A stretch of DNA of 54,638 bases from Gammaproteobacteria bacterium (GTDB lineage Bacteria > Pseudomonadota > Gammaproteobacteria > Steroidobacterales > Steroidobacteraceae): positions 1 through 54,638 of the forward strand of contig JANYJY010000067.1 of the NCBI GenBank assembly GCA_025358295.1, in the 5' to 3' direction. The notes under the pieces are model-generated. The model worked only from the letters and a program-made list of their open reading frames with translations. It was not told the origin of the DNA and ran no database searches. Of this stretch, positions 127 through 15,875 are shown piece after piece (the first letter of the stretch is position 1; every line of letters starts with the position of its first letter). The position numbers and the translations under genes were made by a program.

Positions 127-199
127 GCGCGGCGATTAAACCACAATTGACTGTGTAATCAGACTGTTAATTGAGTCAAGTATCGGGCCCCGGCGGGGG

Positions 200-208: not shown

Positions 209-258
209 TTGGGGGGACCAAGTTCCTAAAGACGGGGGGTAGACAAATGAGGTGCGCC

Positions 259-534
259 ATGAGGTATCAAAGCCTATTGCTCGCGGCAGTGTTCGCCAGC
301 GGCCTCGCAGGGGCCGAGACCATCGCGGTCGACAGCGGCATCGCCGTCAAAGAGTCCGATGTGGCCACGCCTGCTCGCGGCATGTCCATGGACCAAGTTG
401 CCAACAAATTCGGGGCGCCGGTGACCAAGGTGCCCGCCATCGGCAAACCGCCGATTTCACGCTGGGAATATCCGGGCTTCGTGGTGTATTTCGAAGCCAC
501 CCATGTGATCCACAGCGTCATCGCGAACTCCTAA
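259..534 (+). CDS. Small secreted protein, possibly BamE/SmpA-like fold
   Basis: The 91-residue product starts with a short basic segment and a hydrophobic core ending in GLAGA, a plausible Sec signal peptide cut before ETIAV. The mature part contains the pattern MSMDQVANKFGAP, then PPISRWEYP, then FVVYFE, then HVIHSVI. This resembles small periplasmic proteins with a BamE/SmpA-like fold, but that is recognition from memory and weak. I chose ATG 259 because GAGG at 249-252 sits six bases upstream; ATG 247, twelve bases earlier and in frame, is the alternative, with GGGGGG seven bases upstream. mfd follows 85 bases downstream. Its function is unknown. Confidence 0.7.
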   Translation: MRYQSLLLAAVFASGLAGAETIAVDSGIAVKESDVATPARGMSMDQVANKFGAPVTKVPAIGKPPISRWEYPGFVVYFEATHVIHSVIANS

Positions 535-619
535 AGCAAAATCGCGTAAGATTCCATCGGCCTATCACGCCCACCGCGACTAGTTCGCGGCGGGCGTTTA
601 TTCGTTTTATTTCCTTGAA

Positions 620-3600
620 GTGTCGATGACCCTACTCAAACCCTCCCTCCCTACTGCCGAAGCGCCTGTCGTCAAATGGGGCAAGCTGTACGGTGCCGCG
701 GCTGCGCTCGCTATTGCCGAGGCGGCGGCCCAGGCCAAGGGCCCGCTCATCGTCATCGCGCAAAATACGCGCGACGCGGAGACCCTCAGCGACGAAATCA
801 AGTTCTTTGCCGGCGCTGCCTTGAGCGCACGGGTCTTTCCCGATTTGGAGACGCTGCCCTACGACAGCTTCTCCGCGCACCCCGACATCACCTCGGCCCG
901 GCTCGCTACCTTGGCGGAGCTGCCGCGCGCCCGCCAGGGCGTCTGGCTGGTGGCTGTCGATACTCTGCTGCAACGGCTCGCGCCTCGCAGCTATGTCGAG
1001 GCCTACTCCCTCAAGGTGCACGTCGGCGAGACGCTGGATCTGGATGCGCTGCGCGCTCAACTCGCACTGGCCGGCTATGCCGCCGTCACGCAGGTGGTGG
1101 CGCATGGCGAATTTGCCGTGCGCGGCTCGCTGGTCGACGTCTTTCCGATGGGATCGGACACTCCCTTTCGCATCGACCTGCTGGATCGCGACGTCGAAAG
1201 CATTCGGCGCTTCGATCCGGACACACAGCGCTCCCTGGATAAGCTGGACCGCATACACCTGCTGCCGGCTCGCGAGACGCCGCTCAATCCCGAGGCGGTA
1301 CGTGAATTCCGCCGCCGTTACCGTCTGCGCTTCACCGGAGACTTGTCGGAACAAGCGATCTATCGCGATGTCAGTCAGGGAATTGCCCCCGGCGGCATCG
1401 AGTTTTTCCTGCCCCTGTTCTTCGAGCGCACGTCGCATCTATTCGAATATTTGCCGCCGGACAGCGTCCTCATCGATATGAACGACGCGGCGTCGAGCGT
1501 GGACCCACTGTGGCATGGCATCGTCGAACGCCATGAACAACTACGGCACGATCGGCATCGGCCGATCTTGGATCCCGCGGAAGTGTATTTGACGCCGGCG
1601 GAATTTGCGGCCTCCTTTCGCCTCTGGCCGCAGGTGCAGCTGCATGGCTTCGAATGGCCGCCCGAGACCGCGGCGCCCGTGCAGAATTTCCCCAGCGTGG
1701 CGCCGGCGGCGGTGCGCATCGATGCGCGCGCCGAGCAGCCGGCGGCGGACTTGGTGTCCTACCTCCTATCGAGCCCGGCGCGTATTCTGCTCGCGGCCGA
1801 ATCCGCCGGCCGCCGCGAACTGCTGCTGGATCTGCTGCGCGGGCGCGATATCCAGGCGAAGATCTTCGACAATTTCGCGAGCTTCATGGCGAGCCCGCAG
1901 ACTCTGGGAATCACCGTGTCGGCCGCCGTCTCGGGACTCAGGCTCGAGACTCCGCCTCTGGAAATTCTCACCGAAGCGCAGCTCTTCGGCGATCGCGCGC
2001 GGCAGGAGCGCCGCCGCCGCCGCGCTGAACGCGATCCGGCGAAAATCCTCAAGGAGCTGACGGATCTTCGGATCGGCGCACCGGTGGTGCACGAATCTTA
2101 CGGAGTGGGACGCTATGTCGGGCTGCAAACCATGGACGTCGCCGGCTACACCGGCGAATTTCTGGTGCTCGAATATGCGGACGGCGACAAGCTATATGTT
2201 CCCGTTCAGGCGCTGCACCTGGTATCGCGCTACACCGGCGCGCCTGCGGAAACCGCGCCGCTGCACAAGCTCGGCGGCGAACAATGGCAGAAAGCGCGCC
2301 GCAAGGCCGCGCAGCGCATTCGCGACGTCGCCGCGGAACTCTTGGATTTGTATTCGCGCCGCGCCGCGCGCAAGGGCACGCAAATGCTGGCCGGCGAGGC
2401 CGAGTATCGCGCCTTTCAAGCCGGCTTCCCATTCGAGGAAACCGCCGATCAAGCCGCGACCATCGAACAGGTGCTGGGCGACCTCAAATCCGACAAGCCC
2501 ATGGACCGGGTCATCTGCGGCGACGTCGGGTTCGGCAAGACCGAGGTCGCGCTGCGCGCCGCCTTCGTCGCCGTGCAGGCCGGCAAGCAGGTCGCGGTGT
2601 TGGTCCCGACCACTCTGCTCGCTCAACAACACTACACCACCTTCATCGACCGCTTCGCAGACTGGCCGGTGCGCGTGGAGAGCCTGTCGCGCTTTCGCAG
2701 CAACAAGGAGGCTCAGGTGATCCTCGAAGGTGTCGCCGCCGGGACCGTCGACATCGTCATCGCCACGCAGCGCTTGCTGCAAGGCAAGGCGCGCTTCAAG
2801 GATTTGGGCCTGGTCGTGATCGATGAGGAACACCGCTTCGGCGTGCGCGACAAGGAAAAACTCAAGGCGCTGCGCACCGAAGTCGACGTCCTGACATTGA
2901 CCGCAACCCCGATTCCGCGAACCCTGAATATGGCCATGGGCGGATTGCGCGATCTGTCCCTGATCACGACCCCGCCCGCCGAGCGCCTGGCGGTAAAGAC
3001 CTTCGTGCTGGAGTGGAACGAATCCGTGGTGCGCGAAGCTGCTTTGCGTGAAATACGGCGCGGCGGCCAGATCTACTTCGTTCATAACACCATAGAGACC
3101 ATCGAGAAAACGGCGCAGGCGATTCGCGAACTGGTGCCCGAAGCGAATGTCGCCGTCGGTCACGGCCAGATGCGCGAGCGCGATCTGGAGCAGCTCATGC
3201 TCGATTTCTACCATCGGCGCTTCAACGTACTGGTCTGTACAACCATCATTGAGAGCGGCATCGACGTACCGACGGCGAACACCATCGTCATCGACCGCGC
3301 GGACCGGTTCGGCCTGGCGCAAATCCACCAATTGCGCGGGCGCGTCGGGCGATCGCATCATCGCGCCTATGCTTATTTGATCACCCCGCCCCGCAAGGCC
3401 ATGACGGCCGATGCCATCAAGCGTCTCGAGGCGCTGGAGTCGCTCGAGGAACTGGGCGCCGGATTCACGCTCGCCACCCACGATCTGGAGATCCGCGGTG
3501 CCGGTGAACTTCTCGGCGACGAGCAAAGCGGCCAGATTCAAGAGATCGGCTACAACCTGTACATGGAATTGCTGGAGCGGGCCGTGGCAGCGCTCAAATC

Positions 3601-4069
3601 AGGCAAGCAGGCCGATCTGGAACGGCCGCTTAACGCCGGTCCCGAAGTCGAGCTGCACATCCCTGTGCTGATTCCTGAGGACTACGTTCCCGACGTGCAT
3701 CTGCGACTGGTGCTTTACAAGCGTATCGCGGGCACTGCCTCGCGCGAGGAGCTCGACGAATTGAAAGTCGAGATGATAGACCGCTTCGGACCCATGCCGG
3801 CATATGCCCAATCGCTGTTTCGCGCGACACGGTTGAAATTACGCGCCGGAGAACTCGGCATACGCAAAATCGATGCGGGCGCGAACAGCGGTTATTTCGT
3901 ATTCGAGGAAACGAACCAGATCGATCCGAAACGCGTGCTGAAGATGATCCAGGGAAAACCGAAGGAATTTCGCCTCGATGGTCCGCTGAAACTGCGCTTC
4001 GCGCATGATGCACGCACCGAAGAGAAGCTGTTCTTGCGCGTCGAACAGCTGGTCGAGCAACTCACCTAG
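620..4069 (+). CDS. mfd: Transcription-repair coupling factor Mfd
   Basis: Mfd is an ATP-driven DNA translocase that displaces RNA polymerase stalled at lesions and recruits UvrA. The 1149-residue length matches the family (about 1150). The N-terminal third is the UvrB-homology module. A CarD/TRCF-type RNA polymerase interaction domain follows near residues 480-545 (VVHESYGVGRYVG). The helicase part has Walker A GDVGFGKTEVA near 634 and the motif II box DEEHRFG near 735. It continues with TATPIPRTLNMA, GRVGRS and a C-terminal TRCF domain. The start may be GTG 620 or ATG 626; neither has a strong ribosome binding site. The gene stands alone and ends at a hairpin facing a convergent gene. Confidence 0.97.
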   Translation: MSMTLLKPSLPTAEAPVVKWGKLYGAAAALAIAEAAAQAKGPLIVIAQNTRDAETLSDEIKFFAGAALSARVFPDLETLPYDSFSAHPDITSARLATLAELPRARQGVWLVAVDTLLQRLAPRSYVEAYSLKVHVGETLDLDALRAQLALAGYAAVTQVVAHGEFAVRGSLVDVFPMGSDTPFRIDLLDRDVESIRRFDPDTQRSLDKLDRIHLLPARETPLNPEAVREFRRRYRLRFTGDLSEQAIYRDVSQGIAPGGIEFFLPLFFERTSHLFEYLPPDSVLIDMNDAASSVDPLWHGIVERHEQLRHDRHRPILDPAEVYLTPAEFAASFRLWPQVQLHGFEWPPETAAPVQNFPSVAPAAVRIDARAEQPAADLVSYLLSSPARILLAAESAGRRELLLDLLRGRDIQAKIFDNFASFMASPQTLGITVSAAVSGLRLETPPLEILTEAQLFGDRARQERRRRRAERDPAKILKELTDLRIGAPVVHESYGVGRYVGLQTMDVAGYTGEFLVLEYADGDKLYVPVQALHLVSRYTGAPAETAPLHKLGGEQWQKARRKAAQRIRDVAAELLDLYSRRAARKGTQMLAGEAEYRAFQAGFPFEETADQAATIEQVLGDLKSDKPMDRVICGDVGFGKTEVALRAAFVAVQAGKQVAVLVPTTLLAQQHYTTFIDRFADWPVRVESLSRFRSNKEAQVILEGVAAGTVDIVIATQRLLQGKARFKDLGLVVIDEEHRFGVRDKEKLKALRTEVDVLTLTATPIPRTLNMAMGGLRDLSLITTPPAERLAVKTFVLEWNESVVREAALREIRRGGQIYFVHNTIETIEKTAQAIRELVPEANVAVGHGQMRERDLEQLMLDFYHRRFNVLVCTTIIESGIDVPTANTIVIDRADRFGLAQIHQLRGRVGRSHHRAYAYLITPPRKAMTADAIKRLEALESLEELGAGFTLATHDLEIRGAGELLGDEQSGQIQEIGYNLYMELLERAVAALKSGKQADLERPLNAGPEVELHIPVLIPEDYVPDVHLRLVLYKRIAGTASREELDELKVEMIDRFGPMPAYAQSLFRATRLKLRAGELGIRKIDAGANSGYFVFEETNQIDPKRVLKMIQGKPKEFRLDGPLKLRFAHDARTEEKLFLRVEQLVEQLT

Positions 4070-4082
4070 CGCAGGCTGCAGC

Positions 4083-4106
4083 GCCCGGACAGCATTCTGC
4101 CCGGGC
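4083..4106. terminator. Hairpin between convergent mfd and DUF1993 gene
   Basis: GCCCGG at 4083-4088 pairs with CCGGGC at 4101-4106. An A-C mismatch and three inner pairs close a CATT loop. It lies 14 bases past the mfd stop and before the stop of the convergent gene, so it could act in both directions. There is no clear T-tract. Confidence 0.5.
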
Positions 4107-4124
4107 AGCCATGCAACGAAACGC

Positions 4125-4634
4125 TTACTGAATCGCGCCGAGAAAATCGCCCTTGCCGACTTCGACGCCGGCCTTGCGCAACAGCGCATAGAACACCGTG
4201 CTATGGAAGTAGAAATTCGGCAGCACGAAATCGGTCAAATACGCAGTGCCGGTGAACTTCCAGGTGCCGCCGGGAAATTTGAGCTCGATGGCGCGGCTTT
4301 CAGCGTCCTTCATCTGGCTCGCGTTCACCGACTTCACGAATTCCAATGTCTTGGCGATTCGCGCCTTCAAGTCGGCAAAAGTCACTTCGGTATCTTCGTG
4401 CTTCGGCACCTCGATTCCCGCCAGTCGCGCAGCACCGCCCTTGGCAGCATCGCAGGCGATTTGCACCTGACGAACCAGCGGATACATGTCGGGAAACAGG
4501 CGCGCCTGGGTGAGCACGGCGGAGTCGAACTTCTTTGCCGCGGCGTGCGCGGCCGCCTTATCGAGAATTGCCGACATATTCGTCAATCCGCGCGTCAACA
4601 TCGGAATCGAAACATCGTATATTGAAATCGACAT
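4125..4634 (-). CDS. DUF1993 family protein
   Basis: The 169-residue product matches the DUF1993 family: MSISIYDVSIPM start, repeated helices, LFPDMYPLVRQVQ and a C-terminal LPNFYFHSTVFYALLRKAG segment. The family has a DinB-like four-helix fold and no established activity. No signal peptide or membrane segment is visible. GGAG lies upstream of ATG 4634 at good spacing. The gene is monocistronic and convergent with mfd. Confidence 0.85.
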   Translation of the reverse strand: MSISIYDVSIPMLTRGLTNMSAILDKAAAHAAAKKFDSAVLTQARLFPDMYPLVRQVQIACDAAKGGAARLAGIEVPKHEDTEVTFADLKARIAKTLEFVKSVNASQMKDAESRAIELKFPGGTWKFTGTAYLTDFVLPNFYFHSTVFYALLRKAGVEVGKGDFLGAIQ

Positions 4635-4740
4635 CGAAATCTCCTTCGTAAATCCTCAGCGGGGGCGATACTGTAACCAAACACGCCTCGCTTGAGTAGC
4701 AAATGCCTCGCGCCGGTTTCTATAGTAAAGTCGGTGTCAC

Positions 4741-5337
4741 ATGCTGCCCTTTTCCGCATCCTGCGAACGCAATAAGGAACCCATCCTCGATGTGTTGCGC
4801 AGCCGATTCGCCCGATCCGCGCAAGTCCTGGAAATCGGCAGCGGCACAGGTCAACACGCCGTCCACTTCGCCCGCGCCCTGACGCACCTGACCTGGTATC
4901 CGACCGAGCAATTGACGTATTTGGCGGATTTGACCGAACGCGTAAGGCTCGAGGGCACCCACAATCTTCGCGCGCCGACTCTGCTGGATGTCAGACAGGC
5001 CGTCTGGCCGCTGCGCAGCGTCGATGCCGTATTTACGGCCAATACCCTGCACATCATGTCGTGGCCCGCGGTCACGAGCGCCCTCAACGGCATCGGCGGC
5101 GTGCTGGCTCCCGGTGGTGCGCTGTGCGTGTATGGCCCGTTCCGTTACGCGGGCAGCTATACATCGGAGAGCAATCGGGAGTTCGACCAAATGCTTCAGG
5201 AGCGCGACCCTCTGTCGGGACTGCGCGATATTCAGGCAATCACGCCGCTCGCCGAACAATACGGCATGCGACTTGTCGCAGACCATGACCTGCCGGCGAA
5301 CAACCGCCTGTTGGTGTTCATCAAGGAACCCGGCTAA
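4741..5337 (+). CDS. DUF938 family SAM-dependent methyltransferase-like protein
   Basis: The 198-residue product has the DUF938 signature PFSASCERNKEPIL at the N-terminus and a class I SAM-binding motif I LEIGSGTGQHA near residues 37-47. TANTLHIMSWPAV follows, and LAPGGALCVYGPF fits motif post-II. The substrate is unknown. A TATAGT hexamer at 4721-4726 could be a -10 element very close to the start. An SDR gene follows 20 bases downstream in the same direction, so the two probably share a transcript. Confidence 0.85.
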   Translation: MLPFSASCERNKEPILDVLRSRFARSAQVLEIGSGTGQHAVHFARALTHLTWYPTEQLTYLADLTERVRLEGTHNLRAPTLLDVRQAVWPLRSVDAVFTANTLHIMSWPAVTSALNGIGGVLAPGGALCVYGPFRYAGSYTSESNREFDQMLQERDPLSGLRDIQAITPLAEQYGMRLVADHDLPANNRLLVFIKEPG

Positions 5338-5357
5338 GTCCACGTAAAGGAGATTGC

Positions 5358-6059
5358 ATGCCCGGCTTCCCGTACCGTACCGCGCTGATCGTCGGCGCCG
5401 GCCCTGGGATCAGTGCCTCGCTCGCCCGCCGGCTCGCCGGATTGGGCGTGAAAGTCGCTCTGGCGGCGCGCAACGTGCAAAAACTCGACGCCGTGGTTAA
5501 AGCCTGCGGCGCACAGGCCTTCGCCGCTGATGCCGCCGTTGCAGAATCGGTCGCAAAGCTCTTCGACCAGGTGACGTATCGCCTAGGCGAACCCGACATC
5601 GTCATATATAACGCGGCCGCACGCGCCCATGGGCCCCTCGCGGAGCTTGACCCGAGCGCCGTACAAAAGGCGATGGCCATTACCGCCTTCGGAGGATTTC
5701 TCGTGACTCAGCAGGCAGCGAAGCGAATGCTGCCCCATGGTCGCGGGGCCATCCTGTTGACCGGCGCTACGGCAAGCGTCAAAGGGTTTGCGAATTCGGC
5801 CGCGTTCGCCATGGGAAAATTCGCGCTGCGCGGCCTGGCGCAGAGTGCCGCGCGCGAATTGGGGCCGCGCGGCATCCACGTCGCGCACTTCATCATCGAT
5901 GGTGGAATTCGCGCGGCCCATCGCCCGGACACCGCAGACGCACCCGACAGCACGCTCGACCCCGAGGCGATCGCACAGAGCTACATCGACGTGCTGCGCC
6001 AGCCGCGCAGCGCTTGGTCCCTCGAGGTTGAACTGCGACCCTGGGTGGAACAATTCTAG
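5358..6059 (+). CDS. Short-chain dehydrogenase/reductase-like protein lacking the catalytic Tyr
   Basis: The 233-residue product has a Rossmann fold with the nucleotide-binding pattern GAGPGIS near residues 12-18 and YNAA in place of NNAG near residue 93. The usual YxxxK active-site pair reads FAMGK near residues 155-159, so the Lys is kept but the Tyr is Phe. A subfamily of SDR-like proteins with a similar region (ARELGPRGIHVAHFIIDGG) is known to me, so the change is probably ancestral rather than a random mutation. AAAGGAG lies nine bases before the ATG. It may be an NAD(P)-binding protein with altered or no oxidoreductase activity. Confidence 0.85.
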   Translation: MPGFPYRTALIVGAGPGISASLARRLAGLGVKVALAARNVQKLDAVVKACGAQAFAADAAVAESVAKLFDQVTYRLGEPDIVIYNAAARAHGPLAELDPSAVQKAMAITAFGGFLVTQQAAKRMLPHGRGAILLTGATASVKGFANSAAFAMGKFALRGLAQSAARELGPRGIHVAHFIIDGGIRAAHRPDTADAPDSTLDPEAIAQSYIDVLRQPRSAWSLEVELRPWVEQF

Positions 6060-6316
6060 ATACTGTATGGTAATCGGGTAAGCCTCGAAGTCTGCATTGC
6101 TTGACTACAACAATAATAATTGGAGCCCCAGAAGCCCATGCTGCCTTTGCCCACTTTTCTGATGCGCAGCTCCCATCACGACGTGGGCGCAGGACGCGAG
6201 GTCGCCGGCAACATCAATCTGAACGGGGGCACGGCAGCAACCACCGCCACCGATCAAGTACGCGCGGTCGGCTATGTATCGAGCGGCCACCCAGCGTCGG
6301 CTGAGACGGCGCCGTC
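6060..6316. other. 257-base spacer without a supportable gene
   Basis: The stretch between the SDR-like gene and the SMP-30 gene has an open frame from TTG 6120 to 6320 that overlaps the next start by ATGA. Its translation has no recognisable motif and low-complexity Ala/Thr content. I see no RNA gene, clear promoter or strong hairpin. The region immediately after the SDR gene is locally AT-rich (6098-6120). Confidence 0.4.
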
Positions 6317-7216
6317 ATGAAATCTTTGCTGTTCATCTTGCTTTGCGCTGCCGGCCTGTGCCGCTCACAGGCTCCCGTGCAGGTGCTGAACGACGATGCT
6401 CACTATCCGGAAGGGCCGATATGGTTTCACGGCAAACTGTACTATGTGGAATACGCCCGCAATGCAGTCATGACCTGGGACGGCACGCGCAATACTGTGT
6501 TTTCTGCCGAACAAGGCTGTGGTCAATCTGCTGTCGTACCGACGCTGCACGGCGAGTTCCTCACGACCTGCTACGACAACGGCACGATCGGCCGCATGTC
6601 ATCGGACGGCAAGGTACTACCCGCCTACACCCACGACAAAGACGGCAATAAATTCGTCGGCCCCAACGATTTCGCGCCGGACGGCCGTGGCGGAATTTAT
6701 TTCACGACCTCGGGAAGTCACGGCGATGCCATCGATGGCAAGGTTTTCTACATTGCGCGCAATCAAACCATTTCATTGCAAGCGGACGATGTGCACAACG
6801 CCAACGGCGTGGCCGTGTCGAAGGATGGAAAAACACTGTACCTGGTCGAAACCGATGAGAACCGGCTGCTCCAGTTCAAGATCGGAATCGACGGCTCCCT
6901 GTCGGAGCGGCGGATCTTTGTGAATCTCGACGATCTCACGCATCACGTGGTGCACCTCTGGCCGGACGGCGTCAAAATCGACTCGCGCGGCGAAATCTAC
7001 ATCGGCCAGAGCCCCCGCGAAACTCAAGTGCCCCTGGCCGGAGTGATTTTCGTCGTCGATGCAGAGGGCAAGCTGCTGCGCCAATTGACGCTGCCCTCCC
7101 TGCAGGTGCCGAACTTCGCATTCAGTCCCGACGAGAAGACCCTGTACGTCACCGCCGTGGATCAAATCGATAAGCCGCCCTTTCTCGGCAAGCTATATTC
7201 CATCGCCACCCGCTAA
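6317..7216 (+). CDS. SMP-30/gluconolactonase family protein, secreted
   Basis: The 299-residue product begins with a Sec signal peptide (hydrophobic LLFILLCAAGL, probable cut after CRSQA). A six-bladed propeller of the SMP-30/gluconolactonase/LRE family follows. Metal-site markers are visible: YPEGP near residue 30 (Glu), GPNDFAPDG near 115 (Asn, Asp), NANGVAVSKDG near 162 and WPDGVKID near 215 (Asp). The family hydrolyses sugar lactones or similar esters with a bound divalent metal; the substrate here is not predictable. The neighbouring aromatic-demethylation and transporter genes on the other strand hint at a catabolic context. Confidence 0.88.
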   Translation: MKSLLFILLCAAGLCRSQAPVQVLNDDAHYPEGPIWFHGKLYYVEYARNAVMTWDGTRNTVFSAEQGCGQSAVVPTLHGEFLTTCYDNGTIGRMSSDGKVLPAYTHDKDGNKFVGPNDFAPDGRGGIYFTTSGSHGDAIDGKVFYIARNQTISLQADDVHNANGVAVSKDGKTLYLVETDENRLLQFKIGIDGSLSERRIFVNLDDLTHHVVHLWPDGVKIDSRGEIYIGQSPRETQVPLAGVIFVVDAEGKLLRQLTLPSLQVPNFAFSPDEKTLYVTAVDQIDKPPFLGKLYSIATR

Positions 7217-7219
7217 GGC

Positions 7220-7243
7220 GCTCGCCGCCCGCCGCTGGCGAGC
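7220..7243. terminator. Hairpin after the SMP-30 gene
   Basis: GCTCGCC at 7220-7226 pairs perfectly with GGCGAGC at 7237-7243 over a ten-base loop, starting four bases after the SMP-30 stop. It lies between convergent genes. No T-tract follows, so terminator activity is only probable. Confidence 0.4.
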
Positions 7244-7347
7244 CGGCCATCCGCCGTTGGAGCTTCCTATACGGACAGCGACGCCTACAACGACGACCTG
7301 CCTTACGGGACCCGGGTGGGTGGCCGCGCCCCGCCGCAGCACTTGCC

Positions 7348-8745
7348 TCAGACAGCCTGACGCGTGCGCCAACCGTCGGCGTACGAATCTCGCGCCACCT
7401 CGGAATACGGTACAGGGCTTACCGTCGCCCGAATCTCGGTTTGCACATGGCGCTCCACCGTGAGCTTCGCCGACCCCCCCTGCTCCTCACCCCACAACAA
7501 ATTGACCTGGGTGCCGGGCCTGCTGTACTTGGCGTCCATCACCGCAAGGGTCAGCATGCGGCCTTCGTTGGCACTGTATCCGATCCAGGTCGACAGGCCG
7601 GCCGATTGACCATCGACCAATACCTTGTCGTAGGGATGCATTGCATACACCGCGGACGGAAAATCGATGTACTTGGCGCGCTCGCCCTTCTGAAACATCG
7701 AACTCAACACCCGCGTAACGTCCTCGTTATCCAAAGCCAGGGTCACTTTCTTGCGATGCTCGCCCGCCGCCAACCTCTCGAGCGCAGCTCGCCCGATAAA
7801 GTCGTGGTCGAACTTGACGAAAGGCCCATAACCTAAGTCCCACGGCGTCAAGTAATAGTCTTCGATATCGTTGGAATAAAAACTGCCGCCCAATGAAGCA
7901 GTGCCCTCATAGCCGTTTGCGGGCAGCCATTGGCGGTACGGCTTCATCTTCTCGCCGCTGTACACCGCGGGCAATGGCGAGGGTATCCAACCGGATTCAA
8001 TGGTGTTCGAGGCGTACGTCCGACCACCCACCAAGTGCAGACCGAATTCCTTCCCTGCCAAGATCAGCGCCTGCCTGACCTCCTCGCCCTCCTCCCACGG
8101 GCCGAACAGTTCAACCCCCGGCTGTCCCGCCATCCCGTGACGAAGAGTACGCACGGACCTGCCGGCAATGGTCATGGTGGTCATGTTGAAGAACTTCAAA
8201 TCGGGAGCGGGTTTACCGGTCACGCTCTGAACCAATTGCATGGCGTTCGGGCCCTGCAGCTGGAAACGATAAGATTTGCGCCGGCTGGGATCTGCCCGAC
8301 GCGCGGTTCTTTCATCCAATTCCACCTTGACATCGTACCCGCCGGTTTCCGCGTGGTATCTGACCCAATTAAGCACCGGCACGCGGCCCACGAGATTGAA
8401 TTGATTGGGGGCGAGATAGAACAGAATGACGTCGCCAATCACGTATCCGTCATGGCTGCATGGCACGAATTGTTTGGCCGTGTCGACCGCGAAATTCTGA
8501 AAACTGTTGACCCCGAGGTAGGAGAGCATTTTTAACGCATCGGGTCCTTCCACGAGCAGGTCCGCCATGTGGTAGGACTGATTGAAGAGAACGCAGGTCT
8601 CCTGCCACGCGCGCTGCTCGTCGCGCCAATTCGTGTATTCGGCAGGCACGCCCGGATACGCGTTCGGACCGGTCTGCATATTGCGTAACAGATCGACCGG
8701 GTTGCCGCTGCTTTGCAACAAATCTTCCAGACTCTTGACGCTCAT
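7348..8745 (-). CDS. LigM/DesA-like aryl-ether O-demethylase (tetrahydrofolate-dependent, GcvT fold)
   Basis: The 465-residue product resembles LigM and DesA of Sphingobium, which move the methyl group of vanillate or syringate to tetrahydrofolate. Shared segments include NWRDEQRAW near residue 40, GDVILFYLA near 108, RTLRHGMAGQPG near 205, SGWIPSPLPA near 250 and YGPFVKFDHDFIGR near 320. The length fits that group and exceeds DMSP demethylase DmdA. ATG 8745 is chosen because AGAGGA precedes it at good spacing and the homology begins there; the frame stays open further upstream without family similarity. An aromatic-acid-type MFS transporter lies just upstream. The exact methoxy-aromatic substrate is not determined. 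Confidence 0.87.
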   Translation of the reverse strand: MSVKSLEDLLQSSGNPVDLLRNMQTGPNAYPGVPAEYTNWRDEQRAWQETCVLFNQSYHMADLLVEGPDALKMLSYLGVNSFQNFAVDTAKQFVPCSHDGYVIGDVILFYLAPNQFNLVGRVPVLNWVRYHAETGGYDVKVELDERTARRADPSRRKSYRFQLQGPNAMQLVQSVTGKPAPDLKFFNMTTMTIAGRSVRTLRHGMAGQPGVELFGPWEEGEEVRQALILAGKEFGLHLVGGRTYASNTIESGWIPSPLPAVYSGEKMKPYRQWLPANGYEGTASLGGSFYSNDIEDYYLTPWDLGYGPFVKFDHDFIGRAALERLAAGEHRKKVTLALDNEDVTRVLSSMFQKGERAKYIDFPSAVYAMHPYDKVLVDGQSAGLSTWIGYSANEGRMLTLAVMDAKYSRPGTQVNLLWGEEQGGSAKLTVERHVQTEIRATVSPVPYSEVARDSYADGWRTRQAV

Positions 8746-8851
8746 AATTCCTCTCTCGAAATGCCTTTGGTTGATTCGCAATTTTACCCCAGACGCGCGT
8801 TGCCTCAGGGCGATAGAAGGAACGATAATTGGTCTGTCCGCGCACAAGCGC

Positions 8852-10108
8852 CTAGGCTTTGGCGGTGTGACGCTGCTCGGACGTGAAGGGCAGGAACCAC
8901 AAGGCAACCGCCGCCGCCAACGACCCGACGCCCATGATGAGCGCCACTGTTTGCAGGTCATCGCCGGCGCGAAAAAGAAAACCGGCCATGATGGGCGCAA
9001 GCACAGCGCCCGCCCGGCCGGTTCCCACCGCAAAGCCCGTACCGGTCGCCCGCAAATAAGTGGGGAACACCTGAGCCAGAATTCCATACAGACCGACGAT
9101 GCCGGCGTTGATGAAAAAACCGGCAATCGCACAGACAAGCGACAAATGCGGAAGATCGGCGTGGCCAAGTCCGAATACGGCAAGCATGACGGTCGACATC
9201 ACCAGCACGGCCATGGTCAGAGCCTTGAGTCCCAGCCGCAGCGACAGCAGCCCCAGCACTGCACCGCCAGTCGCGCCACCGACATTGAGCCAGACCAGGA
9301 CACCCGCCGCAGACGCCGCAGTGAAACCCAAATCCACCACGATCTTCGGCACCCATTCGACGACGAAGTAGAAACTGATGACGTGCAAGAAATAAGCAAG
9401 CGACATCAACACTGTCGTGCGCACCAGCTGAGGGCTGAAAATATCCGCCACAGAGCGCCTGCCTGCCTCGGCCGAGGCAGCCGGCAATGCGTCGAGCGGC
9501 GCGTGACCCATTCGCACCAGGCCCCGGTTGACGTCGGCGAGCGCGTTCCCCGGCTGCCGCTGACACAGCCAATCGATCGACTCGGGCACCAGAAAGTACA
9601 CGAGTGGAATGAAAAACATCGTGGCCGAGGCGCCGAACCAAAACACCGAGCGCCAATCGCCAAGCTGCAACAGCAAGGCCGCGATGGAACCGCCGGCCAC
9701 GGCGCCGAGCGGATATCCGATCGCCATTAAGGATACGTTCATGCCGCGGCGGCGCGAGTTTGAGAACTCCGCCGCCACGGCATTGATGGTGGCAAGCATG
9801 CCGCCGATTCCAAGTCCGGTTACAACGCGCCACCCCGACAGCGAATACACGCTCCTCGCCTGGGTGGCCATCAACATGCCGATGGCCATGACCACGAGAC
9901 AGCCGAGCAAGGTCCGGCGGCGCCCGATCTTGTCGGCGACGCCTCCGAGCAGCACGGACCCCAGGCCCATTCCGATCAACTCCATCGAGAGTACGAATCC
10001 CAACGCGGCGCGGTCAATTCCCCACTCGCGTGCGATGCCGGGGGAGGCAAAGCTGATGGATAGAATATCGAATCCGTCCAGTGCATTCAGGCCCATAGTG
10101 ATTGCCAC
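8852..10108 (-). CDS. MFS transporter, aromatic acid:H+ symporter-like, N-terminus eroded
   Basis: The product has about eleven to twelve hydrophobic helices and AAHS/MFS landmarks: LDGFD in the first helix, the loop motif GGVADKIGRRR between helices 2 and 3, and YLRATGTGFAVGTGR in the C-terminal half. Related carriers import benzoate-type acids. Members normally carry about 25-30 residues before the first helix. Here homology begins abruptly at VVVAIT, and the upstream open frame (to 10192) is an out-of-frame reading of a biotin carboxylase. GTG 10108 or ATG 10096 are the only starts within transporter sequence, and neither has a clear ribosome binding site. The gene may be non-functional or poorly translated. 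Confidence 0.8.
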   Translation of the reverse strand: MAITMGLNALDGFDILSISFASPGIAREWGIDRAALGFVLSMELIGMGLGSVLLGGVADKIGRRRTLLGCLVVMAIGMLMATQARSVYSLSGWRVVTGLGIGGMLATINAVAAEFSNSRRRGMNVSLMAIGYPLGAVAGGSIAALLLQLGDWRSVFWFGASATMFFIPLVYFLVPESIDWLCQRQPGNALADVNRGLVRMGHAPLDALPAASAEAGRRSVADIFSPQLVRTTVLMSLAYFLHVISFYFVVEWVPKIVVDLGFTAASAAGVLVWLNVGGATGGAVLGLLSLRLGLKALTMAVLVMSTVMLAVFGLGHADLPHLSLVCAIAGFFINAGIVGLYGILAQVFPTYLRATGTGFAVGTGRAGAVLAPIMAGFLFRAGDDLQTVALIMGVGSLAAAVALWFLPFTSEQRHTAKA

Positions 10109-10118
10109 AACGACGTCG

Positions 10119-10553
10119 CCCGAGCAGTCGTTCCACGAATCCCGTGTCCACGCCCCCCGCAATGAATTCAGTATCCGCCAGCAATGCAGCATGGAAGGAT
10201 AGATTGGTCTTTACGCCAACGATGCGAACCGCTGCAATCGCCGACCTGAGCCGCTGCAGCGCCGTCTGACGATCCGGCCCATGGGCAATGATCTTGCCGA
10301 GGAGCGAGTCGTAAAACGGAGGCACGTGCGAGCCCGGAACGATGTGAGTATCGACACGTATTCCAGCACCGCTCGGCCACACCGCCTCGTGGGCGATGCC
10401 GGGGCTGGGCGCAAAGCCGTTGGCGGGGTCCTCGGCATTGATCCGGCACTCGATAGCGCAGCCTTGAATGTGTACCTTCGACTGAGCGAGCGACAGGCCG
10501 GCGCCGCTCGCGATGGCGATTTGTTCCGCCACCATATCCAGTCCGGTAACCGC
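10119..10553 (-). pseudogene. Biotin carboxylase (AccC/PccA-type) C-terminal fragment
   Basis: The fragment encodes the last third of a biotin carboxylase. It starts at VTGLDMVAEQIAIASG, then HIQGCAIECRINAEDP, PSPG, VPPFYDSLLGKIIAHG and VGVKTNLSFHAALL, and ends at GGVDTGFVERLL. This is uninterrupted until it runs into MFS-derived sequence near 10121. The ATP-grasp N-terminal two thirds are missing and an in-frame TAG sits at 10554-10556, just before the homology. It therefore cannot make an active carboxylase. GGVDTGFVERLL resembles acyl-CoA carboxylase alpha subunits (propionyl-, methylcrotonyl- or geranyl-CoA type), whose BCCP domain would normally follow. Confidence 0.82.
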
Positions 10554-10555
10554 CT

Positions 10556-10621
10556 AGCCCGGCCGAGTCCGCGCGAAGCGCCGGTCATCAACGCGCGACT
10601 ATTGTCGAGTGCTAAATCCAT
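10556..10621 (-). pseudogene. Short-chain dehydrogenase N-terminal fragment (22 codons)
   Basis: An ATG at 10621 opens a reading frame whose first 22 residues, ending TGASRGLGRA, are a canonical SDR N-terminus with the TGxxxGxG nucleotide-binding loop. After GRA the similarity ends and the frame reads through the biotin carboxylase fragment out of frame. About nine tenths of the gene is missing. It lies directly upstream of the carboxylase remnant in the same orientation, so both look like leftovers of one lost cluster. Confidence 0.7.
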
Positions 10622-10651
10622 GGCCCGCAGTGTGCCGCGGACCGGCGGCGG

Positions 10652-12553
10652 CTATCCGATCAGCGACCTCAGTCTTTGGGTGCGGGTGCCGGCCGTGGAC
10701 TCCGCGGCTCGGCACAGCAATTTGTGCGCATCGGCAGCGGGTAATGCGCGACTGAACAGAAACCCCTGCGCCTCGTGGCAATCATGCTCCTGCAAGAACA
10801 GCAACTGCGGAAAGCTCTCCACGCCCTCCGCCGTTACGCTGATCCGCAACGATCTCGACATGGCAATGATGGCCGCGGCAATCGCACGATCGTCGCTGCA
10901 ATCAATAAGGCTGGTCATGAACGATCGATCGATTTTCAGACGGTCCACGGCAAAGTGACGCAGCCGGCCGAAGCTGGAATAGCCGGTGCCAAAGTCATCG
11001 ATCGCCAGCATCACACCCTGCTCCTTCAATTGAGCCAGCGCCTGCTCGGCCCAGACCTCGTCCTTCATAACCACCGATTCGGTAATTTCCAACTCGAGCA
11101 TGGACGCTTCGATTCCGGTTTCCTTGATGATGGATGCCACTAATTGCGGAAAATCCTTGAGAATGAACTGCTGACCCGACACGTTGACCGCCATCCGCGC
11201 CACCGGCAAGCCCTCGTCCAGCCAGGCTTTGGCCTGCCGGCAGGCATTGCGCAGCACCCATTCTCCGATCCCCAGGATCAATCCCGTCTCTTCGGCCACG
11301 GGGATGAATTCGACGGGCGATACGACACCCAACTCGTCATTGGTCCAGCGCAGCAAGGCCTCCATTCCGGAGACTCCACCGGTACGGACGTCGAATTGCG
11401 GCTGATAATGCAGGGCGAATTCGCCGCGCTCCAGCGCGCCGCGCAGTTTCGCCTCCAGGGTGAAACGATGCAAAGCCGCGTCGTTCATCGTGGCGTCGAA
11501 GAACGCGAACATGCCGGGACCCTTGCGCTTGGCAAAGTACATGGCAAGATCTGCGTTGCGCAGCAGGATGTCCACTTCCACGCCGTCCGCCGGGAACATG
11601 GCGATGCCCACGCTCGGCGTGACCACCAAGGTATGCAGCGCGAGCCGCATTGGCTCCTGAAGCTCGGCGATCAATCGGGCTGCTACTGCAGCCGCATCGT
11701 CCGCGGAACGAATGTTCGGCAGGATCACGATGAATTCGTCGCCGCCGAGACGCGCAATATGACTCGAACGCGAAGTGGGCAGATCGTCCAGCGAATCGTC
11801 GGCACGCAGCGAGCTGCGCAGGCGCGCGGCAACCTGACAGAGTAGTTCGTCGCCGACGGCGTGCCCAAGGGTATCGTTAACGCGTTTGAAATTATCCAAA
11901 TCCAGATACAGAACGGCGAGCATGCGTTGATGCTGCTTGGCCGATACGAGCGCACTGGTCAGCCGGTTGCGCGACTGCTCCCGATTAGGCAAGCCCGTCA
12001 GGGCGTCGAAATACGCCAGCTTCACAATGCGATGCTCGGAGCGCCATTTGCTCGCCAGCGAGATGGTCATCTGGCGTATTTCATGAGGATGAAACGGCTT
12101 TTGCAGGTAGGAGAGCTTCTCTTCCGGCGGAACCATGCCACCGATATCGCGCGGATCGACATCCGAATACGCCGTGCACACGACAATTTCGATGGCCGGA
12201 TCGAGCTCCCGAATCCGCGCCGCGGCCCACACGCCGTCCGGGCCCGGCGGCATTCGCATGTCCAGAAATGCCACTGCGAAGGGATCCTCCGCCGCCAGCG
12301 CATCGCGCACTGCCGCCACCGCCGCCTCAGCTCCCTCGCAAAAGACAGGGATGAAAGTCGCTTCGCTGGGCGCGACCGCCTTTGACATCTGCTCCTGCGC
12401 GTTCTTGCTGAAGAGCCGCTCGCGCAAGTTGTGAAACACGACGGTCTCCCTGCTCATGTCCGCTTCCGACAGGATTTGCCGGTAGGCATCACGCACCTCG
12501 GCTTCATCATCGGCGATAAGTACACGAATAGGCATTCGTTTTTTGTCAGACAC
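10652..12553 (-). CDS. Response regulator with REC, GGDEF and EAL domains
   Basis: The 633-residue product has a receiver domain with the acidic pair D15-D16, phosphoacceptor D98 (FLDMRMP) and K152. About 40 residues are inserted between the first helix and second strand of the receiver. A GGDEF domain with intact GGDEF at 270-274 and an EAL domain with EAL at 398-400 follow, with DDFGTGYSS and AEGVE in the EAL part. Both catalytic signatures are intact, so it may make or degrade c-di-GMP. The RxxD inhibitory site is not in its usual place before GGDEF. GTG 12553 is preceded by GAGG at good spacing; GTG 12565 and ATG 12535 are alternatives. The sensor kinase lies 18 bases upstream. Confidence 0.9.
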   Translation of the reverse strand: MSDKKRMPIRVLIADDEAEVRDAYRQILSEADMSRETVVFHNLRERLFSKNAQEQMSKAVAPSEATFIPVFCEGAEAAVAAVRDALAAEDPFAVAFLDMRMPPGPDGVWAAARIRELDPAIEIVVCTAYSDVDPRDIGGMVPPEEKLSYLQKPFHPHEIRQMTISLASKWRSEHRIVKLAYFDALTGLPNREQSRNRLTSALVSAKQHQRMLAVLYLDLDNFKRVNDTLGHAVGDELLCQVAARLRSSLRADDSLDDLPTSRSSHIARLGGDEFIVILPNIRSADDAAAVAARLIAELQEPMRLALHTLVVTPSVGIAMFPADGVEVDILLRNADLAMYFAKRKGPGMFAFFDATMNDAALHRFTLEAKLRGALERGEFALHYQPQFDVRTGGVSGMEALLRWTNDELGVVSPVEFIPVAEETGLILGIGEWVLRNACRQAKAWLDEGLPVARMAVNVSGQQFILKDFPQLVASIIKETGIEASMLELEITESVVMKDEVWAEQALAQLKEQGVMLAIDDFGTGYSSFGRLRHFAVDRLKIDRSFMTSLIDCSDDRAIAAAIIAMSRSLRISVTAEGVESFPQLLFLQEHDCHEAQGFLFSRALPAADAHKLLCRAAESTAGTRTQRLRSLIG

Positions 12554-12571
12554 GGGCAACCTCACGTACTG

Positions 12572-14422
12572 CTATGAACTCGAGCGACTTGCTCGAACCG
12601 GCAACGGGAGCATCAAATGCATGGACGCACCCAACCCTGGACCCTCACTTGCCGCCCAAATCCGCCCGCCGAGGGCGGCTATGGCATTGGCGCACCAATG
12701 CAGCCCGATGCCATAGTTGGTCTCTCGGGATTTGGTCGAGAAGCCCTTCTCGAAGACACGCTGCAAATTGTCGGGCGCGATGCCCACGCCATCGTCCTTG
12801 CAGTGAATATGCAGCTGCTCGCTGTCGGCATCGCCGACTATCTCCGCAGCGAAATGCAGAACGCCTTGATCGCGGCCGGCATCGCGCACGGCATCCGCCG
12901 CATTGATGATCAAGTTCTGCAATATCAATCGAAGCACAGTGCGCGCCACTTGCACGGCTCCCACTTTGCGCAGCGATTCGTCGGAATCGACCACCAGCCG
13001 CTGACGGCAGGTGTCCGGCACGATCTCCAAGGTCTGGGCGACCAGCTCCGGGAGACGGACCGACTCGACCACGTGCGCGTTGTGTGTCGAACGCATGAGC
13101 TCGGAGAGCGCCGATTGCACGATGGCGGCCTGCCGCTGCACTACGGCGACATCGTCGCGCGATTCCTTGACGCTCGACGCCAACTCACGGCAAGCCAAGC
13201 GCAAAAATTCCTCCAGATCGGCGCGACGGTCGACAGAGGCATCGGTCCCCGCAAGCTCGGCGAGTGCGACTTCCACATCGCCTGCCGGCGCATTGCGCAG
13301 CCGGTCGACCAATTTGGCCAGCCGCACACCGAGCGGCGTCATTGCATTGCCGAGATTGTGCAATACGCCCTTGGCGAGTTCGGCAAATCCGGCCTGGAAC
13401 GACTGATCGACGAGTTGGCGCCGCGAGTCCGTCACGCGCTCGACCATCCGATCGAATTCCCGCGCCAACACCGCGATCTCATCGTGTCCCGGGATATTCA
13501 GACGGGTCGACAGGTCCGCATCGTCGCCGACCGCCACGGCGTGGCGCGTCACCCGGGCCAGCGGCCGAAGCACGATACGGTTGAGGGCAACCACCAGCAA
13601 CAGCAATACCGTAACCGCCGCGCCGATCAGGTACAGCGAAGCGTAGGTCACCGCGCCCTGGCCGCGCTCGGTGATTCGGCGCGGAATATCGACACGAAAG
13701 CTCATCAGCGGCGCGCCATAGACATCCATGAATGGCTTACGGACCTGGGTCGACGTCGCGGTTGCCTCGATCAGCTGGTCACCGGACACGGGGCGCTCGT
13801 CCAGCATGAGGAGGCTGGTTTGCGCCTGAGCGCCTATCTTGCGCACCTGCGCCGGCGTCAGAAGCCTGCCCATGAGCACCATCCCCAAGACCTTGCCGCT
13901 GCCGCTGCCGTTCAGCACCGGCGCAGCGGCTATCATCATGACGCCCTGATTCGTGCGCAGCAATCCTCTTGTCGTCTTACCCTCCGCCAAGTATCCGCGC
14001 CAAGGAAAATTCTCGGGCAAAGCCTTGCGTGCGGCCAGATCGATCGGCATGGGTTCGCCGGTATCGAGGTTTCGCGCGCTGGACAGCACATAGTTGCCGT
14101 GCAGATCGATGATCAGTATGGCATTGACCTTGAGCTGCTTGAACGCGACCGGCGTGATGTTGGCGGTCACGAATGCCGTATTCGGCAACTGCACGAATTG
14201 GTACACATCGGCCCAGTTGCCCCAGTCCGCAGCGGTCAGTTCCAAGCTCTCGAGAGCCGTGTCGAGCGCGTAGTCGATTCGTTTCATCGACGTTTCCGCA
14301 TCGTCCCGCTCGAGCTGGGCAAAGCTCGGCATCAGCACCTGTTTTTGGATCGAGATTTCGAGCGCGATCAGGACCGCAAACAGCAGCGCCAGCAGCGAAA
14401 TCATTTTGGTACGGATATTCAC
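12572..14422 (-). CDS. Sensor histidine kinase with CHASE4, HAMP and HATPase domains
   Basis: The 616-residue product has membrane helices near residues 7-27 and 262-282 around a periplasmic CHASE4-like sensor (DWGNWADVYQFV at 67-78). A HAMP linker follows to about 335. The phosphoacceptor region GVLHNLGNAMTPL gives H355. The ATP-binding part has QNLIINAADAV (N box), DDGVGIAP (G1), FEKGFSTK (F box) and GIGLHW (G2). The H-box resembles the LHN-type kinases that often pair with c-di-GMP enzymes. The start is GTG 14422 without an ideal ribosome binding site. It almost certainly phosphorylates the REC-GGDEF-EAL protein encoded 18 bases downstream. The signal is unknown. Confidence 0.9.
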   Translation of the reverse strand: MNIRTKMISLLALLFAVLIALEISIQKQVLMPSFAQLERDDAETSMKRIDYALDTALESLELTAADWGNWADVYQFVQLPNTAFVTANITPVAFKQLKVNAILIIDLHGNYVLSSARNLDTGEPMPIDLAARKALPENFPWRGYLAEGKTTRGLLRTNQGVMMIAAAPVLNGSGSGKVLGMVLMGRLLTPAQVRKIGAQAQTSLLMLDERPVSGDQLIEATATSTQVRKPFMDVYGAPLMSFRVDIPRRITERGQGAVTYASLYLIGAAVTVLLLLVVALNRIVLRPLARVTRHAVAVGDDADLSTRLNIPGHDEIAVLAREFDRMVERVTDSRRQLVDQSFQAGFAELAKGVLHNLGNAMTPLGVRLAKLVDRLRNAPAGDVEVALAELAGTDASVDRRADLEEFLRLACRELASSVKESRDDVAVVQRQAAIVQSALSELMRSTHNAHVVESVRLPELVAQTLEIVPDTCRQRLVVDSDESLRKVGAVQVARTVLRLILQNLIINAADAVRDAGRDQGVLHFAAEIVGDADSEQLHIHCKDDGVGIAPDNLQRVFEKGFSTKSRETNYGIGLHWCANAIAALGGRIWAASEGPGLGASMHLMLPLPVRASRSSS

Positions 14423-14669
14423 CCATACTTCGTACCAGAAATCTCCTAGTCCGGCCGTGCCTCTGTCTTATTTCATGGCTATGTATGCGCTGCAGCGTGC
14501 CGGCGTCGCTGAGAATGAGACGTGGATCACGCTGTTGGCCGTGCCGTCGCCCGTGTATTAACTCGCCGTAATTCATGTAGGCGATTTGCCGCCGGCCTCG
14601 TTACATCACATCAAGAGCTGGACATTGGCTCGTATTTAGACAGTCATCACGGAGCGAGGAGAAACGCAC
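14423..14669. other. 247-base divergent intergenic region
   Basis: The region separates the kinase gene (minus) from a small secreted-protein gene (plus), so promoters for both should lie here. I could not identify convincing -35/-10 pairs. A 28-codon plus-strand frame at 14475-14561 has no recognisable content. Confidence 0.35.
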
Positions 14670-15011
14670 ATGTTAAATTCAGCACGCAAACATCTCGGCT
14701 TTGCCGCCATGCTGGTATCGCTGGCCGCCGTCGCCGGCACCGCGTCGGCGGAAACCACTTGGCAGAAGAATCACCCGCGCCGTACGCAGGTGAACCATCG
14801 TCTTGCCAATCAGGACAGCCGCATCCATCAGGACGTCAAGGACGGCACGCTGACCAAGGCTCAGGCGGCCAGCTTGCACCACGAGGATCATCAGGTGCGG
14901 CAGGAAGAACGCGCTATGGCCAGTCAGAACGGCGGCCACATCACCAAATCGGAACAGAAGGTCCTGAATAAACAGGAGAACAACATCAGCGGTCAGATCC
15001 CGCCGAAATAA
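14670..15011 (+). CDS. Small secreted protein rich in His, Gln, Asn and charged residues
   Basis: The 113-residue product has a clear Sec signal peptide (hydrophobic FAAMLVSLAAVAGTASA, cut before ETTWQ). The mature 85 residues are hydrophilic and probably helical: NHPRRTQVNHRLANQ, then RIHQDVKDGTLTKAQAASLHHEDHQ, then HITKSEQKVLNKQEN. The two halves look like internally related helix pairs (DGTLTKAQAASL against GGHITKSEQKVL). Similar short periplasmic proteins occur in Xanthomonadales and Burkholderiales, as I recall them, without assigned function. AGGAG lies nine bases before the ATG. The gene is monocistronic and ends before a strong hairpin. Confidence 0.82.
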   Translation: MLNSARKHLGFAAMLVSLAAVAGTASAETTWQKNHPRRTQVNHRLANQDSRIHQDVKDGTLTKAQAASLHHEDHQVRQEERAMASQNGGHITKSEQKVLNKQENNISGQIPPK

Positions 15012-15035
15012 TCTGTCGATTCATCCAACGGGAAC

Positions 15036-15064
15036 CACGGGGAAGCAGGTATTGCTTCCCCGTG
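15036..15064. terminator. Perfect 12-bp hairpin between convergent genes
   Basis: CACGGGGAAGCA at 15036-15047 pairs perfectly with TGCTTCCCCGTG at 15053-15064 over a five-base loop. It lies 25 bases after the small secreted-protein gene and 10 bases before the stop of the convergent dimethylargininase gene. It is a likely bidirectional terminator, although no T-tract follows on either side. Confidence 0.6.
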
Positions 15065-15073
15065 ACCGGGCCG

Positions 15074-15859
15074 CTAGAAGCGCAGCGACAAGCAGCTCAA
15101 GCCCCCGTCCATCTTTCGAAATTCGGACATGTCCAGCGTTACCGCGCGGCAGCCCATGGCGCTTAGCGCCGCGGTAAGCCGCGGATACCCGGCCGCCACC
15201 AGCACGACCTCGTTCACGCGCACGCAATTCGCAGCGTAGGCTTCTTCGGCAGATACCGTAATGAGATCGCAGACCTCGATACCGCTGCGCGACCGTAGTT
15301 CGGATTCAAAGCTGCCGTCCGCCACCCACAGTCCGTCGCCGAGATAGGCAATGCCGCTTTTCAAATGCAGCAGTGCCGGGTTGGCCCTGATGTCGACGAT
15401 ACTTGAGCCGTAGCCCCATCGCGTCAAATGCTGCGCCAGCTGCCGCGCGCCGGCTTCATTGGTTCGGGCCGACACCCCGATGAGAAAATGCCCATCCGCC
15501 TCGCAGATATCGCCGCCATCGACACTGCCCGGCGCCGTGATGACCGGCAACTCCGCATGAAAATTCCGCAGGCTTGCGCCGATGCTCACAACCTCGCCCT
15601 GACGGCTTGGCGCACCGGGGCGTGTGAGAATCGCGCCGCGCCCTGTCACGATGGCCGTATCCTCGACGAAGGTGGCGTCGGGCAGGGCCGGCTGCGGCTC
15701 CAGACAGGTGACTTCGATTGCGGCGGCGCGCAGTGCGCGCACGTACGCCGCGTGCTGCTCCAGCGCCAGGTCGACATCGGGCGTTCCTTCGGCGGAGCTC
15801 GACAGGCCGGCGGCGAAATTGCGGGAGGGCGGCCGCACGATAGCGTTGGAGAAATGCAT
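15074..15859 (-). CDS. ddaH: N(omega),N(omega)-dimethylarginine dimethylaminohydrolase (DDAH)
   Basis: The 261-residue product matches the DDAH branch of the amidinotransferase fold, which hydrolyses methylated arginine to citrulline and dimethylamine. Visible markers are PDATFVEDTAI near residues 59-69, GSVDGGDIC near 110, the catalytic His region LLHLKSG near 162 and the C-terminal catalytic Cys in DGGLSCLSLRF. The length fits bacterial DDAH (about 255). It is the last gene of a long minus-strand run, 16 bases after the LOV-like gene, and ends at a hairpin. An arginine deiminase-like hydrolase of a related substrate is the alternative. Confidence 0.88.
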   Translation of the reverse strand: MHFSNAIVRPPSRNFAAGLSSSAEGTPDVDLALEQHAAYVRALRAAAIEVTCLEPQPALPDATFVEDTAIVTGRGAILTRPGAPSRQGEVVSIGASLRNFHAELPVITAPGSVDGGDICEADGHFLIGVSARTNEAGARQLAQHLTRWGYGSSIVDIRANPALLHLKSGIAYLGDGLWVADGSFESELRSRSGIEVCDLITVSAEEAYAANCVRVNEVVLVAAGYPRLTAALSAMGCRAVTLDMSEFRKMDGGLSCLSLRF

Positions 15860-15875
15860 ACGGGACGGGCGGCGA

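Follow-up and report, generated by a model that had tools for sequence, protein, structure and literature searches.

How do the beginning of one gene, the last third of a second and a third gene without its first codons, all three unrelated, come to lie end to end? This is what the minus strand holds between positions 10621 and 8852 of the window, the whole stretch of 54,638 nucleotides that we analysed: the 5' piece of an SDR gene (10621-10556) passes into the end of a biotin-carboxylase gene, and this passes into a gene for an MFS carrier. Full-length homologues of the partial genes exist in relatives, referred to here by our labels for genomes (G), contigs (C) and loci (L). The stretch is a genuine scar of ordinary gene loss, a known kind of event that involves no new mechanism, and the explanation we favour, with a probability of roughly 85%, is the stepwise deletion of a catabolic island at joins with little or no homology. 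The lost pathway apparently served the breakdown of lignin-derived compounds; the scar would record the stepwise loss of a lignin-aromatic island, an hpe/acv-type carboxylase gene included, in a lineage in which a syringate O-demethylase and a likely carrier are still present.

The original prediction, made from the sequence alone, had described three gene fragments edge to edge with two clean junctions, and the homology blocks and both abrupt joins, each sharp to a few bases, do map in this way against the relatives. As a whole that reading, with deletions in a catabolic cluster, recent ones as regards the carboxylase piece, and the loss of an SDR and the rest of a carboxylase, is supported, with the changes given below. 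For annotation, it is of use to know that at the scar the native MFS start is no longer there for an automatic gene caller to detect, and that the carboxylase piece is not to be counted as a carboxylase gene.

The three fragments and their junctions

The first fragment, SDR1, runs from the ATG at 10621 through codon 22 of an SDR gene (MDLALDNSRALMTGASRGLGRA; 10556..10621, minus strand). It has 77% amino acid identity to a 257-residue SDR of G017 (L062) and 68% to that of G013 (L053), its DNA is 80% identical over 65 bp in L053, and the 22-codon piece is found by tblastn with an E value of 4e-6 (against 16 kb). In both genomes the full 257-residue SDR comes after the EAL regulator gene, the same placing as in the window, and the predicted SDR N-terminus down to 10556 was correctly recognised.

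The second fragment comes from a biotin carboxylase of the hpe/acv type, of which it keeps the C-terminal third (10116..10555, minus strand). It covers residues 302-448 of about 462 in the G010 protein and is in frame from 10553, at the alanine just before the VTGLD motif, to about 10116, and the Pfam domain Biotin_carb_C (PF02785) is found in the middle open reading frame with an E value of 5.3e-38, so that the earlier identification as the last third of such an enzyme holds. Against the G013 protein the relic scores 234 bits, whereas 500 dinucleotide shuffles of this stretch reach 29.6 at most. Its amino acid identity is 77% to G013 (C115) over 146 codons and 66-71% to G018, G010 and G023, against 48% to the genome's own AccC over the same columns; taken together, this is 66-77% to the biotin carboxylases of four relative clusters versus 48-51% to the AccC rows. 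A phylogeny of 12 rows, from an initial 15 of which G006_C46 (wrong-frame), own_C65 and own_C72 were left out, groups the relic with the hpe/acv-type cluster biotin carboxylases at a split with support 98/94, the inner forks being weak.

The first junction (10553..10557, minus strand) sets SDR1 codon 22 against biotin-carboxylase codon 302. In the base-level comparison with two SDR relatives and four biotin-carboxylase relatives, the SDR homology stops at 10557 and the biotin-carboxylase homology starts at 10555-10553, with an overlap of about 1-2 bases; in blastn the blocks end at query position 144 and begin at 146-148. At the second junction (10108..10117, minus strand) biotin-carboxylase codon about 448 meets MFS codon about 7. 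The carboxylase homology is over by about 10116 (the blastn matches of four relatives stop between 10132 and 10114), and MFS homology begins at 10114 against G013 and G017, at residue 7 of the short form, or, as DNA, between 10115 and 10095 for all relatives compared and at 10115-10108 for the nearer ones, which leaves an overlap of a few bases at most. The three blocks had been placed in three reading frames; they occupy two, one common to the SDR and the MFS gene and another for the biotin carboxylase.

A single homologous gene covering the joins was considered as well, and rejected, as neither junction is crossed by a match in 39 relatives or in a further search of the order with 295 other genomes; the two sets overlap, and scoring was limited to the best candidates of each genome. 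In the 295-genome search the five longest matches to the carboxylase run from query position 86-88 to 520-523, which is 10555-10553 to 10121-10118 in the window.

The carrier gene and its neighbour

The third fragment (8852..10114, minus strand) is an MFS carrier gene without its native start and with no stop down to 8852, from which the first 6 residues are lost if the short start is counted, or about 20 by the long one. Open frames for this carrier are found in G013 (C130), G017 (C291), G018 (C70) and others, and the amino acid identity to the first three is 81, 79 and 76%. The best NCBIfam match is TIGR00895 (aromatic acid/H+ symport; E value 1.6e-92), whose 310.5 bits lie below the curated cut-off of 418.55, and since the N-terminus is also missing we claim only a likeness to this family: the predicted truncation and aromatic-acid likeness of the carrier stand, while a firm family assignment does not. 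Without its own start the gene may be poorly translated, or may be read from a chance start such as the ATG at 10192 or 10096. A paralogue with its N-terminus and 75% amino acid identity is present on contig C9 of the same genome (L003 8263-9576), where it adjoins apparent MarR-type regulators and a FadB-like gene, all named by eye.

Behind the carrier follows an apparently intact gene for a DesA-type syringate O-demethylase (7348..8745, minus strand; NF047633, 864.6 bits, cut-off 800), and the 107 bases between the two match nothing better than shuffled sequence does (17.3 bits, against a shuffle median of 18.5). G013 seemingly has two DesA-type genes that differ from each other: the one downstream of the MFS gene (L075 6332-6949) is 86% identical to that of the window, and the one convergent with the carboxylase cluster (L054 2878-3189) 50%.

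Relics in the surrounding genes

The scar had been given the extent 10096-10621; the blocks are there, and a search with 126 proteins from 11 relative loci against positions 1-16000 of the window shows that it is wider, with further relics at 6150-6260 and 7256-7333. On the left it is bordered by a second SDR gene, SDR2 (5358..6059, plus strand; 79-82% amino acid identity to G013 and G014). Next to it lies a relic of about 37 internal codons of a second MFS carrier, MFS2 (6150..6260, plus strand), with 49-51% amino acid identity to MFS2 of G017 and G013, where this gene stands before SMP; the relic scores 38.1 bits, against 27.3 for the best of 500 shuffles. SMP itself, an SMP-30/gluconolactonase-like gene, is apparently intact (6317..7216, plus strand; 83-87% to G013 and G017, the G013 homologue matching PF08450). 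Beyond it are about 24-26 internal codons of a polysaccharide-deacetylase-type gene (7256..7333, plus strand, with 24 codons at 7259-7330 in the protein search; residues 180-205 of 308), 69-75% identical to the gene of G017, to which this relic is the sole match in the window's genome at an E value of 0.001; with the gene of G013 it scores 38.9 bits (match 7226-7330) and the best of 500 shuffles 24.6. The relics with 22-37 codons are short.

The right border is a Receiver-GGDEF-EAL regulator gene (10652..12565, minus strand; Pfam EAL, GGDEF and Response_reg; 89-92% amino acid identity in G021, G014, G013 and G017), beyond which lies a gene for a CHASE4-HAMP sensor histidine kinase (12572..14422, minus strand; Pfam). 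Among the 8 relative loci with the regulator, 7 have the kinase gene beside it, and in the remaining one (L053) the contig breaks off within the regulator. The deletions could have been useful in themselves, by removing the carboxylase operon and leaving the carrier and DesA genes co-transcribed with the c-di-GMP signalling pair, with a new MFS start in the relic. If true, genes for aromatic uptake and demethylation would have come directly behind a histidine kinase and a GGDEF-EAL regulator on the same strand, an idea that we regard as a long shot. Counts of promoter-like sites (1, shuffles 0.5) and terminator-like sites (4, shuffles 2.6, sd 1.6) in 8700-10900 are uninformative.

A plasmid origin was also considered and rejected, the best 10 of 25 matching plasmid records covering at most 25% of the query.

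Gene order in relatives

On contig C108, G013 carries an island with the order SDR2-MFS2-SMP-SDR3-M20-epimerase-deacetylase-SDR1-EAL, the contig stopping inside the EAL regulator gene, and G017 (C502), in a compared stretch that does not reach SDR2, shows the same order from MFS2 onward, with one extra gene for a berberine-type oxidase. The order in the window, SDR2, MFS2 relic, SMP, deacetylase relic, SDR1 relic and EAL regulator, matches G013 and, from MFS2 on, G017. In G014 (C248) SDR2 directly adjoins the EAL regulator with no gene between them, and the outer borders in the window are therefore true neighbours.

These observations bear directly on chimeric assembly, which the original prediction had named as its alternative, and by which the contig would join DNA from different places or strains and there would be no real scar. 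The genome is indeed a draft of 74 contigs with an estimated contamination of 2.57%, and no other genome searched matches across either junction. A k-mer assembler needs, however, a far longer overlap than the few bases found at the joins, the outer neighbours agree with the order in the genus (G014), and the MFS2, deacetylase and SDR1 relics follow the order of G013 and G017, where two false joins would leave the other two relics unexplained. With relics that are collinear and overlaps of a few bases, a chimera is very unlikely.

The part of the window with DesA, MFS and the carboxylase sits between the deacetylase and SDR1 relics, an interval with no gene in G013 and with the berberine-type oxidase gene in G017. 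In G010 (C81) and G018 (C70) a cluster consists of a large kinase part (607 and 606 residues), a small kinase part (350), BCCP, biotin carboxylase, carboxyltransferase and a HAD hydrolase; in G010 an acetoacetate-CoA-ligase-like gene comes next. The families in G010 are PEP-utilisers mobile domain, PPDK_N, Biotin_lipoyl, PYC_OADA and HAD-IIA, and the cluster genes of G018, G013 and G023 were assigned to those of G010 by tblastn (48-94% identity). The clusters of G013 (C115) and G023 (C50) are cut by contig ends, that of G023 after the kinase parts, BCCP, biotin carboxylase and the first part of the carboxyltransferase. In G013 a convergent DesA-type gene, and not a CoA ligase, comes after HAD.

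The MFS gene stands directly behind an acetoacetate-CoA-ligase-like gene (60-61% to that of G010) in G013 (C130), G017 (C291) and G018 (C70). At nine other loci with the MFS gene, the ligase gene is directly upstream in three, a few kb off in one and missing in five (L003, L009, L010, L057 and L059). In G018 about 164 kb separate the carboxylase cluster from the MFS gene, both being on one contig. An intact SDR-carboxylase-MFS cluster, with which the scar was to be compared, is found in none of the relatives examined, as none of them has SDR1, carboxylase and MFS adjacent. Together with the layout in G018 and G013 and the count at the nine loci, this counts against a route of two simple deletions from one such row: the two deletions in a catabolic cluster that were originally proposed fit the evidence, while the row from which they would have started, and hence the route itself, is putative.

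The same gene orders allow that an already truncated block of carboxylase relic, MFS and DesA moved, from another place or by transfer, into the interval between SDR1 and deacetylase, which would make the second junction the only internal deletion. That interval is without carboxylase, MFS or DesA in G013 and G017, and in G013 a separate contig carries the MFS gene and a DesA-type gene after an acetoacetate-CoA-ligase-like gene (L075). Against this, the genes listed for the window, judged by eye from their first 60 residues, include no recognisable transposase or integrase, which is also why we rejected a transposon as such. We consider the moved-in block a live variant for the first junction, though on balance a doubtful one.

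According to the stepwise deletion that we favour, an island of catabolic genes like that of G013 and G017 would once have stood between SDR2 and the GGDEF-EAL regulator, and would also have included, besides the MFS and DesA genes, some or all of an hpe/acv-type carboxylase cluster. Most of this island would then have been taken out by deletions whose ends shared little if any homology, and further losses would have led to the MFS2 and deacetylase relics. The earlier position of the carboxylase cluster, between SDR1 and MFS, is inferred, as are the number and order of the events.

Bacterial deletion scars in general hold truncated pieces of genes in ancestral order, with ends that lack long homology, and the scar in the window differs from them only in the particular genes involved. 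MFS2, SMP, deacetylase, SDR1 and EAL follow the order of G013 and G017, and the part with carboxylase, MFS and DesA has no counterpart row in the relatives examined. Deletion between repeats was rejected, since each join shares only a few bases and there is no long repeat in 6000-11000, in a scan that covered the present sequence and to which deletion ends now lost are out of reach. A weak 15-base repeat (87%) links 10106-10120, on the second junction, with 8422-8436 in DesA, and such short pairs often occur by chance.

Genes missing from the genome, and their distribution in the genus

The genome of the window is 97.54% complete, and close copies of the tested carboxylase-cluster genes, of SDR1 or of the deacetylase are absent elsewhere in it. 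Other matches to the biotin carboxylase have 46, 39 and 34% identity; the best matches are 27% for the carboxyltransferase, inside a frame of 1221 residues, 43% for the large kinase part over only 97 residues of an 824-residue frame, 29% for the CoA ligase and 35% for SDR1. The genome-wide test covered these five genes and the deacetylase. Among the 23 genomes of the genus, with the query genome G010 counted, a close carboxyltransferase (77% or more) is present in 3 and a close large-kinase gene (77% or more) in 5, and these counts together with the searches of the genome itself indicate that the pathway is patchy in the genus and absent here as far as the tested genes are concerned. That the rest of an acyl-CoA carboxylase and an SDR had been lost was predicted and agrees with this, although the enzyme is better named an hpe/acv-type (phospho-hydroxyphenylethanone) carboxylase.

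Age and fate of the remaining pieces

In the 12-row phylogeny the end branch of the biotin-carboxylase relic is 0.14, and that of the G013 gene 0.23, and dN/dS between the two is 0.066. The shorter branch and the low ratio suggest that the relic was under selection for nearly all of its history and was cut recently. For the MFS gene, dN to G018 is 0.162 in the window and 0.179 in G013, which shows no acceleration. In contrast, the 37 codons of the MFS2 relic have a dN of 0.34-0.38 to two relatives that differ from each other by 0.044, and by this measure the MFS2 relic looks older. A recent event had been predicted, which appears right for the truncation of the carboxylase, where change is not accelerated. 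The SDR1 and deacetylase relics are too short for dating, and as dS exceeds 1 in most comparisons all dating is rough.

The lack of accelerated change in the biotin-carboxylase piece and the MFS gene, and the fact that both reading frames are open, would also be expected of a functional new gene, either a stand-alone biotin-carboxylase C domain (open reading frame 10535-10014) or a fusion that gives the carrier a new N-terminus from the ATG at 10192. The piece lacks residues 1-301 of the enzyme, however, close copies of the tested partner genes are gone, it ends out of frame within the MFS codons, no ribosome-binding site was seen by eye before the ATG at 10192, and no other genome searched matches across the joins, all of which makes a new gene barely credible.

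Comparison with known carboxylase systems

The hpe (hydroxyacetophenone) operon of Rhodococcus rhodochrous GD02 is given in PMC9618137 as hpeH, I, C, B, A, D, E and F, with hpeH and hpeI for a kinase, hpeC for BCCP, hpeB for a carboxyltransferase, hpeA for a biotin carboxylase, hpeD for a phosphatase and hpeE for a CoA synthetase; the HpeHI kinase is treated in PMC12167813. PMC9618137 also describes acvABCDEF of Sphingobium sp. SYK-6 (Higuchi et al. 2022) as homologous to and syntenic with hpeHICBAD, and as serving acetovanillone and acetosyringone. With the hpe operon, the clusters of G010 (C81) and G018 (C70) have in common a two-part PPDK/PEP-synthase-like kinase, BCCP, a biotin carboxylase, a PYC/OADA-type carboxyltransferase and a HAD-IIA phosphatase, and G010 also the acetoacetate-CoA-ligase-like gene. 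This is a likeness by gene type, and the relatives differ in having the biotin carboxylase before the carboxyltransferase (C-A-B, not C-B-A). The window differs further, as only the last third of its biotin-carboxylase gene remains. A point of likeness to the acv genes, as PMC9618137 describes them, is the syringate O-demethylase gene that adjoins the relic. The source clusters in G010 and G018 are of the hpe/acv type by their gene types, and their action on phosphorylated hydroxyphenylethanones is putative, as is the substrate of the lost pathway; the carboxylase piece is presumably without function. A narrow literature search found no paper on biotin carboxylase, acetovanillone and pseudogene together.

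Plasmids of Pseudomonas putida YC-AE1 and Sphingomonas bisphenolicum AO1 carry BCCP, biotin carboxylase, a carboxyltransferase homologue and HAD in the order of G010 and G018, with identities to G010 of 62% and 55% for the biotin carboxylase and 57% and 54% for the carboxyltransferase. They differ in having a Tm-1-like gene at the place of the kinase genes, and they are complete in the genes named, whereas the window is not. The Rhodococcus oxybenzonivorans plasmid pRB98 (L085 1429-13177) bears kinase and carboxylase genes in one cluster, in which a thiolase and a tyrosine-phosphatase gene take the place of the HAD hydrolase of the others; in the 12-row phylogeny the biotin carboxylase of this plasmid is on the side of AccC.
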